Below are positions 5,396-29,069 of a stretch of DNA of 35,304 nucleotides, one piece after another. The notes beneath the pieces were generated by a model that had not been told where the DNA came from, ran no database searches, and was given only the letters and a program-made list of their open reading frames with translations. The number at the start of each line of letters is the position of its first letter. Position 1 is the stretch's first letter. Position numbers and translations under genes: made by a program. The stretch is from the NCBI GenBank assembly GCA_024635675.1, contig JAGXIJ010000057.1, forward strand, positions 1 through 35,304, read 5' to 3'. The DNA is from Gillisia sp. (GTDB lineage Bacteria; Bacteroidota; Bacteroidia; Flavobacteriales; Flavobacteriaceae).

Positions 5396-6790
5396 TTAAA
5401 TTTCTTCAGCTATTACCATTGCCTGTTTTAGGGCACCAAGCTTATTATATACCTCTTGTAACTCATTTTCTTCATTAGACTCTGAAACTATTCCAGCTCC
5501 GGCCTGATAATGTAAAGTATGGTTCTTGCTCACAAAGGAGCGTATAATAATGGCGTGATTGTAATTGCCATTAAAATCCATGAAACCAATGGCTCCACCA
5601 TAAGCACTTCTATTTACATTTTCATATTTTTCAATTAGGGTCATGGCACTATGTTTTGGTGCACCACTTAGGGTTCCTGCAGGGAAAGTATCTGCTACAA
5701 TTTGCATAGTTCCCACATCCTTATTTCTAGTCCCTGAAACTTTACTTACCAGGTGAATAACATGAGAGAAAAATTGTACTTCCCTATATTTTTCAACTTT
5801 AACGTTTTTGCTATGTCTGCTTAAATCGTTTCGGGCTAGATCCACCAACATTACATGTTCTGCATTTTCCTTTTCGTCTTCAGATAATTTCTTTGCTAAT
5901 TCTGCGTCTTTTTCATCATTTCCGGTTCTTTTGAAGGTGCCGGCAATTGGATGTATTTCAGCTTTGTCATTAGAGACAACTAATTGGGCTTCCGGAGAAC
6001 TTCCAAATATTTTGAAATTACCATAGTCGAAGTAGAATAAATATGGGGACGGATTAATACTTCTTAAGGCACGATATACATTAAATTCATCGCCTTTAAA
6101 GCTCTGGGAAAATCTACGGGATAATACCAATTGAAAAACATCACCTCGCTGGCAATGTTTTTTTCCTAGTTTAACGTTTTCCTTATATTCAGCATCGGTA
6201 AGATTTGAAACCGGAGAATTCTCTCTTCTAAAATTATAGGTCGCGAAATTCTTAACCTTAATTAGTTGTTCTATTTCTTCCAGCTTGCTTTCAGAATTAT
6301 AATTATGATCAAAAATATAGGCCTCATTATTAAAATGATTGATAGCAATTATATTTTGATACACTGCATAATAGATTTCAGGTATCTCTAGATCCCCTTT
6401 CTTTTTAGTTATGCTAATGTCTTCAAAATATTGAACCCCATCATAAGCTGTATAACCAAATAATCCATTGTTAATGAATTTGAAACTGGAAGCATCTGTT
6501 TTAAAAAGTGAGGAGAAATTTTGTATCGCTTCAGCAATATTCAAGTCGGATGTAATTGGTCGTGTTTTTCTATTTCCATCTGGAAAGAGCTCTTCAATTT
6601 GCCCGTCCTTAATCTTTATAGATGCAATTGGATTACAACACACATAGGAAAAACTATTATCGTTTGCATGATAATCACTACTCTCCAGCAAAAGACTGTT
6701 TGGATATTTATCCCGGATCTTAAGATACACACTAACCGGGGTTATAGTATCTGCCAGTAATTTCTTGTAGTTTGTTTTTAAGGTGTACAT
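5396..6790 (-). CDS. trpE: Anthranilate synthase component I
   Basis: This subunit makes anthranilate from chorismate with ammonia from TrpG. With the ATG at 6788-6790 the protein is 464 residues, normal for the family. An upstream in-frame ATG at 6838 would add 16 residues (MSHDKPFFYYNFLKND), but those codons lie in the attenuator terminator, so the downstream start is chosen. The LLESS motif at residues 34-38 is the known tryptophan feedback site. The C-terminal chorismate-binding half contains PSPYLFYFDYG, GSSPEAQ, HPIAGTFKRTG, LVDLARNDL and the GTLSGAPKH motif. Expression is predicted to be controlled by the leader at 6814-6930. First structural gene of the operon. Confidence 0.96.
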   Translation of the reverse strand: MYTLKTNYKKLLADTITPVSVYLKIRDKYPNSLLLESSDYHANDNSFSYVCCNPIASIKIKDGQIEELFPDGNRKTRPITSDLNIAEAIQNFSSLFKTDASSFKFINNGLFGYTAYDGVQYFEDISITKKKGDLEIPEIYYAVYQNIIAINHFNNEAYIFDHNYNSESKLEEIEQLIKVKNFATYNFRRENSPVSNLTDAEYKENVKLGKKHCQRGDVFQLVLSRRFSQSFKGDEFNVYRALRSINPSPYLFYFDYGNFKIFGSSPEAQLVVSNDKAEIHPIAGTFKRTGNDEKDAELAKKLSEDEKENAEHVMLVDLARNDLSRHSKNVKVEKYREVQFFSHVIHLVSKVSGTRNKDVGTMQIVADTFPAGTLSGAPKHSAMTLIEKYENVNRSAYGGAIGFMDFNGNYNHAIIIRSFVSKNHTLHYQAGAGIVSESNEENELQEVYNKLGALKQAMVIAEEI

Positions 6791-6813: not shown

Positions 6814-6843
6814 AAAAAAAAGGCTTGTCGTGAGACAAGCCTT
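6814..6843 (-). terminator. trp attenuator terminator
   Basis: On the minus strand a perfect 10-bp stem, AAGGCTTGTC (6843-6834) with GACAAGCCTT (6829-6820), closes a 4-nt loop and runs into eight U residues (6821-6814). It ends 23 nt before the trpE start codon and lies 25 nt after the leader peptide stop, the place expected for an attenuator rather than for the end of an upstream gene. Confidence 0.92.
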
Positions 6844-6879
6844 GTATAGGAAAATACTATAGCAATGTTACTTCACGAC
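6827..6879 (-). promoter_or_regulatory. Candidate trp antiterminator pairing
   Basis: GTCGTGA (6879-6873), inside the last codons of the leader peptide, is perfectly complementary to TCACGAC (6833-6827), which is the loop plus the start of the descending arm of the terminator. A ribosome stalled at the Trp codons (6906-6898) would leave the first segment free, so this pairing would prevent the terminator. A ribosome that reaches the stop codon would cover it and allow termination. The pairing is inferred by eye, not by folding energy. Confidence 0.65.
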
Positions 6880-6930
6880 GTTTTGACGTAAGTTACTCCA
6901 CCACCAAGTATGTACTGTATTAATTTTCAT
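6868..6930 (-). CDS. trpL: trp operon leader peptide (MKINTVHTWWWSNLRQNVVK)
   Basis: A 20-codon ORF begins with ATG at 6930 and ends with TAA at 6868. Codons 9-11 are three consecutive TGG tryptophan codons, and the terminator of the attenuator follows after 25 nt. Tandem Trp codons in so short a peptide, directly upstream of trpE, are diagnostic of a ribosome-sensed attenuator. A structured trp leader of this kind is known in Bacteroidota (the Bacteroid-trp RNA motif). The peptide itself is probably without function after translation. Confidence 0.92.
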   Translation of the reverse strand: MKINTVHTWWWSNLRQNVVK

Positions 6931-6948
6931 TGGTTCAAATATAAGTAT

Positions 6949-6980
6949 CAAAGTTGAATAGACAATGGTTTTTTTCAAAA
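6949..6980 (-). promoter_or_regulatory. Candidate trp operon promoter
   Basis: TTTTG (6980-6976), a 19-nt spacer and CAACTTTG (6956-6949) match the Bacteroidota consensus TTTG-N19-TAnnTTTG with one mismatch. Transcription would start near 6942, giving a short leader before trpL at 6930. A second exact TATATTTG at 6943-6936 with ATTG 19 nt upstream is an alternative but would start inside trpL. Confidence 0.5.
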
Positions 6981-25115: not shown

Positions 25116-27383
25116 ATGGCATACGATATAGATATGATCAAAAAGGTTTATAGCCAAATGGGGGATCGTGTAAATAAAGCACGTGAAGTTGTTGGAAAGC
25201 CTTTAACACTTTCAGAAAAAATACTTTACTCTCATTTATGGGATGCAAAATCCAACCAAGCCTTTAAACGTGGAAAGGATTATGTAGATTTTGCACCAGA
25301 TAGAATTGCATGTCAAGATGCTACTGCCCAAATGGCTTTGCTTCAGTTTATGCAAGCTGGAAAAAAGAATGTTGCAGTTCCTACAACGGTTCACTGTGAT
25401 CATTTAATTCAAGCAAAAATGGGTGCAGCCTTGGATTTGGTTTCAGCAAATAAATCGAGTCATGAAGTTTTTGAATTTCTGGAATCTGTATCAAATAAAT
25501 ATGGGATTGGATTTTGGAAACCTGGTGCAGGGATCATTCACCAAGTAGTACTAGAAAATTATGCATTTCCTGGTGGGATGATGATTGGAACAGATTCTCA
25601 TACTGTGAACGCAGGTGGGTTAGGAATGGTTGCTATTGGAGTTGGTGGTGCAGATGCTGTAGATGTTATGGCAGGAATGGCATGGGAGCTTAAATTCCCT
25701 AAATTAATAGGGGTTAAGTTAACAGGAAAACTTTCCGGATGGACCTCTGCTAAAGATGTAATCTTGAAAGTAGCCGGAATTCTAACGGTTAAAGGTGGCA
25801 CCGGAGCTATTATAGAATATTTTGGAGAAGGTGCACGCTCAATGTCTTGTACTGGAAAAGGAACAATTTGTAATATGGGTGCCGAAGTTGGAGCTACTAC
25901 TTCTACGTTTGGATATGATGATTCTATGGAGCGTTATCTAAACGCCACAAATAGAGAAGATGTTGCTGCAGCTGCTAATGAAGTTAGAGAGCATTTAACA
26001 GGAGACGATGAGGTATATGCTAACCCTGAACAATATTTTGATGAATTAATTGAGATCAATTTATCTGAATTGAGACCGCACCTGAACGGGCCGTTTACTC
26101 CAGATCTTGCAACTCCTATCTCAGAAATGAGAGAAAAAGCGAAAGAGAACGATTGGCCGCTAAAAGTAGATTGGGGACTCATAGGGTCTTGTACTAACTC
26201 GTCTTACGAAGATTTAACACGTGCTGCCTCTATTGCTAAACAAGCCGTTGATAAAAAAATAAAAGCAAAGTCCGATTTCGGAATTAACCCTGGATCTGAA
26301 ACAATTCGATTTACTGCAGAGCGAGATGGTTTGCTTCAGATCTTTGAAGATTTAGATGCTACTATATTTACCAATGCTTGTGGTCCATGTATTGGGCAAT
26401 GGGATAGAAGTGATAGAAAAGGTGACGAAAAAAATACTATTGTACATTCTTTTAACCGAAACTTTTCTAAAAGAGCAGATGGAAACCCTAATACTCATGC
26501 ATTTGTAGGTTCTCCGGAAATGGTAGCTGCAATTGCAATATCGGGAAGATTGGATTTTGATCCTACCAGAGATAAGTTATTAAATGAGGACGGGGAAGAA
26601 GTGATGTTGGATGAGCCAACTGGAATTGAACTTCCTCCAAAAGGTTTCGATGTTAAGGATCCTGGTTATGTTGCACCTTCTGAAGATGGAAATGCAATAG
26701 AAATTAAGGTTGCAGAAGATAGCGAGCGTTTACAATTATTAGTGCCTTTCAAGCCATGGGATGGAGAAAATCTAACTGGAATGAAACTGCTTATTAAAGC
26801 CTTTGGAAAATGTACTACAGACCATATTTCTATGGCTGGACCATGGTTGAGATTTAGAGGACATTTGGATAATATTTCTAATAATATGTTAATTGGGGCC
26901 ATTAATGCCTTTAATAAAAAGAGCAATTTTGTAAAAAGTCAGATCACTGGTGAATACGATGGTGTGCCTGCGGTTGCAAGAAAATATAAAGCAGCTGGAG
27001 TTCCTACAATTGTAGTTGGAGATCACAACTACGGGGAAGGATCCTCTAGAGAGCATGCAGCAATGGAGCCTAGGCATCTTGGTGTAATGGTGGTATTGGT
27101 GAAATCTTTTGCGAGAATTCATGAAACCAACCTTAAAAAGCAGGGAATGTTAGGGATCACCTTTGTAAATGAAAAGGATTACGATCTTATACAAGAGGAT
27201 GATACTTTTAACCTTACAGATCTTGCTGAATTTGCACCGGATAAACCTTTAACTATTGAGGTTGTTCATGCAGATGGAAGTAAGGACACTTTCAAGGCTA
27301 ATCATACTTACAACAATTCTCAAATAGAATGGTTTAAGCAAGGTTCTGCATTAAACTTGATTAAGATCCAGAACAATGCCTAA
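25116..27383 (+). CDS. Aconitate hydratase, mitochondrial type
   Basis: This TCA-cycle enzyme interconverts citrate and isocitrate through cis-aconitate. At 755 residues it is close to mitochondrial aconitase rather than the longer bacterial AcnA or AcnB. The 4Fe-4S cluster ligands are Cys359 (GSCTNSS), Cys422 and Cys425 (ACGPCIGQW), numbers one away from those of the mammalian enzyme. [33 protein letters not shown] and the C-terminal swivelling domain with [22 protein letters not shown] are intact. It is followed by a terminator-like double hairpin. Confidence 0.97.
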
Positions 27384-27413
27384 GGAGTAGATTCTAACTT
27401 AGTATAAAAAGCA

Positions 27414-27445
27414 AACCCCGAGAAATTAAATTTTCGGGGTTCTTT
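27414..27445 (+). terminator. acn terminator, hairpin 1 of element A
   Basis: AACCCCGA (27414-27421) pairs with TCGGGGTT (27434-27441), loop of 12 AT-rich bases, followed by CTTT. It lies 30 bp after the aconitase stop. Confidence 0.75.
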
Positions 27446-27486
27446 AGTTAGAATAGTTAATACCCTACTATTAACTAACTAACTAA
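27444..27486 (+). repeat. Element A, AT-rich hairpin 2 with CCCTAC loop
   Basis: TTAGTTAG (27444-27451) pairs with CTAACTAA (27479-27486), and TAGTTAATA (27454-27462) with TATTAACTA (27469-27477); 2-nt and 1-nt bulges separate the stems. The loop is CCCTAC (27463-27468). It follows directly on hairpin 1. Confidence 0.75.
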
Positions 27487-27727
27487 TTATCAAAGTCCAA
27501 ATATCATGTGATTCATATTGACTGAAACACACTGAATATCTTATATACATTACTTCTGCATAATAGACTGAATATTAAAATATAATAAATTTAAATACCG
27601 AAATGTGATTAATTCGAACTGTACTGATTATAGAAGGTAGGGATTACAAAATCAGTTAATTGTCGCCTAAGCGATTTTAAAAATAAATCTAGTGTTTAAT
27701 TAATCTATTAAGAAGCATTAAAAGTCT

Positions 27728-27745
27728 TTAACATATAATTAACAT
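27728..27745 (+). promoter_or_regulatory. TTAACAT direct repeat, copy 1
   Basis: TTAACAT-ATAA-TTAACAT, a direct repeat with 11-bp period, which is the geometry of OmpR/PhoB-type binding sites. The flank ATTAAAA.TC is shared with the copy at 28169. Confidence 0.4.
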
Positions 27746-27839
27746 TTAAACAAATATAAGTAATGAATATTTAATCTAATAGAAAATTATAATAAATGAT
27801 TGTTAAGGTTGTTTTTAAATAGTAGAATAGTTAAAATGA

Positions 27840-27868
27840 AAACTCGGGAAATTTTCCCGAGTTTCTTT
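27840..27868 (+). terminator. Hairpin 1 of element B, terminator-like
   Basis: AAACTCGGG (27840-27848) pairs with CCCGAGTTT (27856-27864), loop AAATTTT, then CTTT. No gene ends upstream of it within 450 bp, so it may end an unannotated RNA. Confidence 0.65.
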
Positions 27869-27869
27869 A

Positions 27870-27905
27870 TTTGATTAAACAACACCCTACAATTGTTTAA
27901 TCAAA
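27870..27905 (+). repeat. Element B, AT-rich hairpin 2 with ACCCTAC loop
   Basis: TTTGATTAAACAA (27870-27882) and TTGTTTAATCAAA (27893-27905) form a perfect 13-bp stem around CACCCTACAA. The stem sequence differs entirely from element A while the loop core ACCCTAC is the same. Confidence 0.8.
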
Positions 27906-28168
27906 TTTCATATAATTTTTAATAATATTATTTTCAGTTTTTCTTTCGAAATAGTATGATTTATAATTATGACTTAATTATTTCAGATATTATTTTAACA
28001 TAATTTTATAATTTACAAAATATTTACAGCATCTTAAAATTAGATTTTCTTTCTAAATATAAATTGTTGATTTTTAAATAATTATTCTAATTTAAAAGAA
28101 AGAATTATCTTACTTATTGAGATTGAAAGTAAATTTTTATCGCTTATAGTCAACCTTATTAAAATTCT

Positions 28169-28186
28169 TTAACATAATATTAACAT
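28169..28186 (+). promoter_or_regulatory. TTAACAT direct repeat, copy 2
   Basis: TTAACAT-AATA-TTAACAT with the flank ATTAAAATTC, 125 bp before the XRE/S24 gene. Possibly a response-regulator site for that gene. Confidence 0.4.
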
Positions 28187-28310
28187 ATTAGCAGTTGGTA
28201 TCACCACGTTTTATCATTATCCATTATAATGCCTTTTCCCTATAGTTTAAAAGCCGATCTTCGTAAATAATAATCTGGCCTATTTAATTAATCTACACTT
28301 AATATTTATC

Positions 28311-29069
28311 ATGACTAAGCGATCATTTATTGGTGAAAGAATTAAAGCACTTAGAAAGAAAAATAGCTTTTCACAATCTCTTGTGTCCGAAAAACTATTT
28401 ATATCACAGGCGGCATACTCGTTAATCGAAAACTCACAAAATGGGATTTCTGTAGATCATATTATCAATTTAAGTAAACTCTATAATGTTACAACAGATT
28501 TTATATTAAAGGGGGAGAAGTATTCGATAAAAATAGATCGAGCTAGCGGATTTATCCCGCTTATTAGAGCTCATGCGCATGCCGGTTTTATAAAGAACTT
28601 TAATGAGGACAACGATTATGATGTTGCAGATTGGTATAGAATCCCCGGATTTAATCCGACTATCGAACAGAAGTTATTTGAAGTTACCGGAGAGAGTATG
28701 TATCCCACACTTCTTGATGGAGATGTTGTTATTTGCCAGAATCAACCAAAAATTGATAATATATTAGATGGTTCATTAATTCTTTTAGTAACCGAAAGCG
28801 GTGTTTTAATTAAACGCATCCGTTTAGATACCAATTCAGATTATCTTCTTCTAGAAAGTGATAATGAACATGAAATCGAGCCAACACGGAAAATAAAGAA
28901 AGACGAAATTTTTCAAGCCATGGTGGTACGAGGGAAAATTAGTAGTGTTTTATTGCCTCACCATCAACTTGCTTCTAAAGGGAAGTTACAGAATATGGAA
29001 GAAGCAATAGAATTTTTAAAAAGTGAGCTCTTTAAATTGAATAAAAAGTTAAGTAGTCTTAATAAATAG
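28311..29069 (+). CDS. XRE-family regulator with S24 (LexA-like) peptidase domain
   Basis: A 252-residue DNA-binding protein. The N-terminal helix-turn-helix spans about 8-65 (IKALRKKNSFSQSLVSEKLFISQAAYSLIENSQ). A linker with A91-G92 (RAHAHAGF) lies where LexA-type repressors are cleaved. The S24 domain has Ser129 in GESMYPTLLDGD and Lys168 in GVLIKRIR, so the catalytic dyad is present. The C-terminus (226-252) is a lysine-rich possible coiled coil. It may be a stress or signal repressor that inactivates itself; no phage genes surround it, so a prophage CI origin is not supported. It stands alone before a tlpA-like gene. Confidence 0.9.
   Translation: MTKRSFIGERIKALRKKNSFSQSLVSEKLFISQAAYSLIENSQNGISVDHIINLSKLYNVTTDFILKGEKYSIKIDRASGFIPLIRAHAHAGFIKNFNEDNDYDVADWYRIPGFNPTIEQKLFEVTGESMYPTLLDGDVVICQNQPKIDNILDGSLILLVTESGVLIKRIRLDTNSDYLLLESDNEHEIEPTRKIKKDEIFQAMVVRGKISSVLLPHHQLASKGKLQNMEEAIEFLKSELFKLNKKLSSLNK

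Follow-up and report, generated by a model that had tools for sequence, protein, structure and literature searches.

An unnamed candidate locus for minus-strand small RNAs, convergent with the aconitase gene, in one clade of Gillisia

Several described RNAs provide points of comparison for a hairpin-rich locus beside the aconitase gene of Gillisia sp. (Flavobacteriaceae). Rfp18 of Flavobacterium psychrophilum is, as presented in PMC9723704, widely conserved in Flavobacterium and accompanied by mutant data. The Gillisia locus resembles it in being intergenic, structured, short and limited to a lineage, and in having a stem-loop predicted to pair; it belongs to another genus. GibS of Bacteroides thetaiotaomicron, from the same phylum, is likewise an intergenic small RNA with an intrinsic terminator, about 145 nt in length, but the account in PMC7366714 has it largely unstructured with a single-stranded seed at the 5' end, whereas the candidate seed of the RNA proposed here, RNA-A, is a hairpin loop in a transcript that would be about twice as long. 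A precedent for the proposed way of working is CJnc190 of Campylobacter jejuni: according to PMC8687705, the C/U-rich loop of this sRNA targets G-rich sequence, and an antagonist RNA, CJnc180, comes from the same locus. That antagonist is antisense to CJnc190, whereas RNA-A and a second candidate, RNA-B, would be arranged in tandem on a single strand, with only a loop complement in common. The guanidine-II riboswitch offers a likeness of another kind, a contact between two hairpin loops (PMC9300104); compared with the features given there, the Gillisia locus is without a ligand, without a minus-strand gene of at least 80 aa in its gap, and has other loops. By title, none of the literature covered on Gillisia noncoding RNA concerns such an RNA. 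Our best reading is that the locus would represent a small-RNA family, as yet without a name, from a single clade of Gillisia, encoded on the minus strand and convergent with aconitase.

The window, that is, the whole 35,304-nt stretch of DNA that was analysed, corresponds to contig C103 in a draft genome of 2.2 Mb and 66% completeness. A gene-free gap of 927 bp (27384-28310) separates the aconitase gene (25116-27383, plus strand; Pfam Aconitase and Aconitase_C) from the gene of a helix-turn-helix/peptidase S24 regulator (28311-29069, plus strand), and no gene of at least 80 aa occurs on the minus strand of this gap. The initial annotation had pointed out the gap and, within it, two double hairpins, element A (27414-27486) and element B (27840-27905). 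The extent of the gap was borne out, folding reproduced both double hairpins at these positions, and seven other Gillisia genomes were found to carry both, contrary to the refuting condition set there, that the paired hairpins would be absent from every other genome. Element A had been said to follow aconitase, and it does so 27-63 nt past the stop codon in seven of the eight genomes and 592 nt past it in G002. The annotation knew of no named family with this arrangement; in agreement, Rfam at gathering score gave no match at the locus in the window or in nine genus loci of the region, and the best hit of an E-value scan of the region was sraA, at 24.6 bits versus the 56 needed. What had been overlooked is a third conserved hairpin, C, predicted at 27623-27656, whose loop complements those of A and B.

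Read on the minus strand, element A consists of an AT-rich hairpin, A' (27444-27486; from folding and alignment), with the 6-nt loop GUAGGG at 27463-27468, and of a GC-rich hairpin, terminator A (27414-27441; from alignment), which is followed by UUUGCUUUUUAU and folds on both strands. Element B consists of an AT-rich hairpin, B' (27869-27906, minus; from folding and alignment), with the loop UGUAGGGU and GUAGGG at 27885-27890, and of the GC-rich terminator B (27839-27865, minus) with its hairpin at 27840-27864, which the pattern scan lists on both strands. Both elements fold far better than dinucleotide shuffles (z -7.2 for A and -7.9 for B, with 0/200 shuffles as good in either case). The plus-strand motif ACCCTA has 12 sites in the window when both strands are counted, and only those of A and B lie in a loop whose stem scores at least 8. 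Patterns for additional ACCCTAC hairpins in the own genome gave no result. A search of that genome for CTTT-to-ACCCTAC spans gave 32 matches, 30 of which were fetched and screened for a stem score of at least 8; this yielded two further CTTT-ACCCTAC hairpins, with stem scores of 12 (C24:9867-9893) and 9 (C26:3046-3088), each of which lies within a long open frame (of 555 and 159 codons, respectively). Such a hairpin alone is therefore not unique.

The strand of the locus can be read from imperfect pairs in the stems. Counted outward from the loop in eight genomes, the A' pairing cells comprise 55 Watson-Crick, 9 G-U and 0 A-C cells on the minus strand, and those of B', excluding the closing pair column (U-G in most), comprise 72 Watson-Crick, 11 G-U and 0 A-C cells with 5 other mismatches. 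All 20 wobble cells of A' and B' are G-U on the minus strand and would be A-C mismatches on the plus strand, which places the RNA on the minus strand, with the proviso that these cells are related by descent and do not amount to 20 independent events. The C' hairpin (see below) has 57 Watson-Crick, 3 G-U, 1 A-C and 3 other cells, so that one of the four wobble cells of C' dissents from this strand signal, with none in A' or B'; one pair in the GC stem of A in the window dissents as well (see below). The plus-strand reading of the initial annotation is overturned by these counts (20 G-U cells on minus versus 0 on plus), and several of its details change with it. The order of terminator and then hairpin is reversed, since on the minus strand the GUAGGG-loop hairpin precedes the terminator. 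Element B had been proposed to end an unannotated RNA of the 27446-27840 region; on the minus strand it is A that would end an RNA, of 27405-27679, and B would end an RNA coming from the right.

A' and B' align on the minus strand in one register around GUAGGG (16 sequences). The 7-pair helix of this alignment is paired in 94.6% of cells, versus 26.8-61.6% in slid registers, and its 26 double-sided cells compare with 9.6 +/- 2.6 in shuffles (0/500 as high). The number of pairs with a double change, five, was equalled in 74/500 shuffles and is less telling. This covariation is in part a contrast between A and B; in the B' set alone there is AU/GC double-sided exchange at three of the seven pairs, and in the A' set alone the double changes come from G005, with G009 contributing at the outermost pair. 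GUAGGG is present in 16/16 aligned copies and also in the cut A' of G004. The earlier proposal that both structure and loop are under selection is upheld by this pairing and by the constancy of the loop. The proposal of an RNA- or protein-binding loop survives in that an RNA-binding loop is likely, and needs amending in that the loop is GUAGGG(U), not ACCCUAC. By eye, no short open frame is common to the eight genomes. A TTG/GTG-start frame that runs through A' and its terminator, similar in G013, G006, G007 and G002, was considered as a small coding frame and judged non-coding.

Hairpin C' (27623-27656, minus) has the loop UCCCUACC, with CCCUAC at 27637-27642. The first base of this loop varies in relatives, the 9 nt CCCUACCUU are kept in 8/8 genomes, and G004 changes the next base. 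The stem is almost invariant, and the covariation score of the C' domain was reached in 122/500 shuffles. CCCUAC is the perfect complement of the GUAGGG of A' and B' (6/6 bases in 8/8 genomes), and the arrangement of a kissing loop, two hairpin loops with complementary bases, is found in all eight. The free-duplex energies of the C' loop with the A' and B' loops are -9.8 and -9.6 kcal/mol, respectively; the native loop alone among 30 permutations of the A' loop reaches -9.8, as do 0.12% of 20000 random 8-mers. The paired bases of the C' and A' loops are invariant, and there is accordingly no C'-A' covariation. The C' loop region at 27631-27644 (minus) would also pair over about 11-13 bases, with two G-U pairs, with GGAAGGUGGGGAU, which we take to be a stretch of 16S rRNA; this is probably chance.

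The distance between the C' and A' loops is nearly constant in the eight genomes (167, 170, 174, 174, 174, 175, 175 and 177 nt) despite indels. The B'-C' distance is 231-256 nt in seven genomes and 405 nt in G002, where the extra bases between C' and B hold a dispersed repeat (2675115-2675140), one pattern of which occurs 113 times in that genome. As judged by eye, it lies upstream of both the TTAACA repeats and the promoter region of RNA-A. The position of this repeat between C' and B fits two transcription units, of which RNA-A would be the fixed one. In G005, no exact CCCUAC partner for the A' loop was found within the 2.9 kb that were read, which suggests that the GUAGGG loop is older than C' or independent of it.

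The candidate RNA-A would extend over 27405-27679 on the minus strand, a length of about 275 nt between its inferred start and the point where the U-rich tract of terminator A ends. It is delimited by the conserved 5' domain, the C'-A' distance in eight genomes and the terminator hairpin, both ends being putative. The alignment-based consensus energy of the 5' domain on the minus strand is -10.2, versus -0.6 +/- 0.9 in 200 column shuffles (z -10.5, 0/200), and folding of the opposite strand gives z -1.75, with 15/200 shuffles as good. A structured RNA-A on the minus strand is very probable.

The start of RNA-A is put tentatively near 27679. A candidate -7 promoter element at 27684-27691 (minus) reads TAGATTTA in the window, TAAATTTA in five relatives, TAATTTTA in G013 and TAAATTCG in G009. 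An element of the TAAATTTA type lies 46-49 nt before CCCUAC in seven genomes and 55 nt before it in G015. The flavobacterial promoter consensus is given in PMC6847099 as TAHHTTTG, often 4-5 nt before the start. The match of the RNA-A element to this consensus is imperfect, in that the final G is missing from seven of eight genomes and a disfavoured G occupies the middle of the window copy; a promoter scan that demanded an upstream TTG passed only G006 at the RNA-A position. Before B', no conserved promoter comparable to the RNA-A element was found. A twin stretch of 36 nt with TTAACA-N5-TTAACA occurs at 27717-27752 and 28158-28193, with 83% identity; one copy is upstream of the regulator gene, and the other, upstream of the promoter region of RNA-A, is oriented opposite to that region. 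The twin is possibly a shared operator or promoter element.

Three further hairpins are predicted within RNA-A. P1, at the 5' end (27663-27674, minus; UCGC/GCGA in the window), folds with changed stems in six of eight genomes, not in G007 and G004, and is outside the alifold consensus. P3 (27594-27618, minus) follows C', is formed by UUUCGAAU..AUUCGAGAU in relatives and is weaker in the window; it belongs to the alifold consensus, with 87.0% of cells paired. P5 (27505-27535, minus), in the spacer, is variable and weak; it folds singly in six of eight genomes, G007 folds otherwise and G009 hardly at all, and the alignment there is too loose for pair counting. Alignment of the C'-A' spacer gave no consensus structure.

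At the 3' end, terminator A has the features of an intrinsic terminator on the minus strand, namely a conserved stem and a U-rich tract, as does terminator B. The pattern scan of the window lists terminator A on the plus strand only, and one pair of its stem in the window reads G-T on the plus strand and A-C on the other. The U-tract of terminator B is UUUUUUAUU-like in 6/7 relatives and interrupted (UUUUCAUUUU) in the window. Terminator stems vary among relatives with pairing kept. Between the aconitase stop and A, no strong hairpin was found in seven genomes, the best being one of -8.1 kcal/mol in G004; because A lies only 27-63 nt past the stop with no strong hairpin between, terminator A is probably bidirectional and serves aconitase from the plus strand as well as the minus-strand RNA. 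B' and terminator B would form the 3' end of the second candidate, RNA-B, coming from the right.

The locus is carried by 8 of the 16 Gillisia genomes (the own genome, G002, G004, G006, G007, G009, G013 and G015). A and B stand downstream of aconitase, with changed stems and an unchanged loop, in G002, G006, G007, G009, G013 and G015; in G004 a contig end cuts terminator A, and A', C and B are on another contig, where C and B presumably belong to the same locus. A model of C' (R2) matched once in each of the eight genomes, seven of which built the model, so that in 40 genomes searched C' was found in 8/16 of the genus and 0/24 others. A model of A' and B' (R1) gave 16 matches of at least 50 bits in the 40 genomes, all at this locus: seven genomes contribute both A' and B', G004 contributes B', and G005 contributes A'. 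Fourteen of these 16 are the model's own sequences, which leaves as independent matches the B' hairpin of G004, at 73.2 bits, and the A' hairpin of G005, at 51.5 bits; the next score among the matches listed, 45.5 bits, is a plain terminator. Under stricter filters, R2 matched only the own genome among 299 genomes sampled from the family. Among 80 aconitase loci, R2 matched only the Gillisia loci L134 and L135, beyond which R1 gave only matches of at most 35.3 bits; the sequence of the third locus from Gillisia, L136, stops within element A. The loop pattern of C occurs at 16 places in 60 relatives, seven of them C loci and nine, by eye, in unrelated contexts.

Outside the carriers, G005 has an A'-like module with a terminator (the 51.5-bit match, outside the model's sequences), and in G008 a terminator is preceded by a looser hairpin with a UAGGGG-containing loop; at 22 bits with R1, this genome was not counted as a carrier. 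In both genomes aconitase has, by eye, its own terminator, and the module of G005 or the looser hairpin of G008 is then convergent with it. G001, G003, G010 and G011 have a plain aconitase terminator (by eye), and G012 and G014 were searched with the R1 and R2 models only. A DNA tree of aconitase covered 15 of the 16 genus genomes (G012 with a partial gene) and three sequences from outside, 18 in all. It unites the eight carriers in one clade (support 1.000), with G005 as the sister (0.989) and G010, which is without the locus, branching next (0.994). G014 was left out of the tree as its gene is broken: its aconitase (C1:4234354-4236620) matches in several pieces, one with eight in-frame stops, and is either a pseudogene or an assembly error. 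The tree suggests an order of assembly, as G005 has A' alone and its sister clade has A', B' and C' together; A' may have come first, or G005 may have lost C' and B'.

Several other structured elements were encountered in the window and in relatives. Rfam RF01692, the Bacteroidete tryptophan peptide leader, matches the window with 62.6 bits at 6834-6950 (minus), where a run of minus-strand genes has its upstream end. A dispersed palindromic repeat, GTCACCCTGAA-N4-TTTCAGGGTCT, found for example at 839-864 of the window, occurs 15 times in the own genome, 29 times in G006 and 113 times in G002, and its reversed control 0 times; similar repeats lie downstream of aconitase in the Salegentibacter loci L145, L147 and, partly, L171. 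Salinimicrobium has a structured 3' region of a small convergent gene, in which the hairpin AGUAAUUUUUACUGGGGGGCAAAAAUUACU is kept in 4/4 loci (L152 ~6385-6480, L150 near 6602, L149 near 6499 and L153 near 3649) and the stem of a second hairpin differs among those read. This region has no Rfam match, and a search for the complement of its loop gave nothing useful. Other hairpins that carry a G-rich loop and stand ahead of a terminator or close to one, on the opposite strand to aconitase, were seen in Salegentibacter lacus (GAUUGGGGCA, L144 7004-7091, minus), in Christiangramia gaetbulicola (UUUGUAGGGAG, L151, minus, ~158 nt past aconitase) and as the UAGGGG-loop hairpin of G008 (L067 2320-2403, plus); they are either chance or distant relatives. 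A further hairpin, GUGGUAGGGUAGAAGCUACCAU, stands shortly before a terminator at another genomic place in G011 (L117 centre, minus) and scores 38.8 bits with R1.

These observations can be accommodated in several ways. The RNAs of the minus strand may be real and the GUAGGG and CCCUACCUU loops independent sites for RNA or protein, with their complementarity a coincidence or by-product. The retention of GUAGGG at A' in G005 without C' speaks for such independence, as do the conservation of C' over 9 nt in 8/8 genomes, beyond the 6 that A' needs, and the insertion that parts B' from C' in G002. An exact 6-nt complement in an 8-nt apical loop is expected in only about 3/4096 random cases, however, and it holds here in 8/8 genomes along with a near-constant distance, so that independence of the loops appears rather unlikely. 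It is also conceivable, and improbable in our estimation, that A' and B' are merely 3'-end elements, each a stabilising hairpin joined to an intrinsic terminator, with no regulatory RNA of interest upstream. Both do precede terminator hairpins on the minus strand, little is conserved upstream of B', and the R1 model scores plain terminators up to 45.5 bits among the matches listed, but the invariant loop, the conserved C' domain, the strand-specific folding and the near-constant distance are left unexplained by this account.

The two remaining explanations are disfavoured. The form originally read, in which a terminator on the plus strand precedes an ACCCUAC-loop hairpin, has in its favour the terminator-like matches of the plus-strand scan at A and B (for A on plus only) and the position of A after aconitase. 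Against this stand the A'/B' wobble cells, 0/20 of which fit the plus strand, the far better folding of the middle domain on minus, and the separate aconitase terminators of G005 and G008 with the module or looser hairpin convergent (by eye), and we give this form very little credence. A DNA-level origin, with the hairpins as ends of a mobile element (IS200/IS605-like or REP-like), is suggested by the way in which two similar hairpin modules flank a 0.4-kb stretch. Here the eight carriers form one clade, the G-U wobbles are of the RNA type, and the 40 genomes contain no R1 match of at least 50 bits and no R2 match (E up to 0.1) elsewhere; we regard this origin as very improbable. Membership in a mobile-element class (IS200/IS605, REP or MITE), for which several dispersed copies would be expected, was set aside, as no strong match away from this locus was found in the 40 genomes.

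The model that we propose is of a minus-strand RNA-A that closes by a kissing contact between C' and A', with B' competing for C' in trans; taken as a whole, its chances of being right seem about even. In this model RNA-A (~275 nt) would start near 27679 and end at hairpin A' and the intrinsic terminator. The C' and A' loops would pair by six Watson-Crick base pairs, and this kissing contact, which taken singly we regard as a possibility of slightly less than even standing, would close RNA-A and cover the pyrimidine-rich C' loop (CCCUACCUU). That loop is likely to be the target-binding seed. RNA-B, coming from the right, would end in B', present the same GUAGGG and compete for C' in trans, and the ratio of RNA-A to RNA-B would then set the amount of free C'. 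The role of B' as a competitor is doubtful. More speculative still is the idea of a self-titrating pair, in which A' hides the seed C' of RNA-A in cis and B' of the tandem RNA opens or sequesters C' in trans. On that idea, two terminator-linked hairpins with unrelated stems and one shared loop would be cis and trans decoys of one seed.

The regulatory RNAs of the Flavobacteriaceae are little known, and the present locus supplies a genus, a strand and coordinates. If the C'-A' contact is real, it would provide an example of a small RNA that masks its seed with a hairpin at its own 3' end, together with a tandem decoy that carries the same loop on a different stem.
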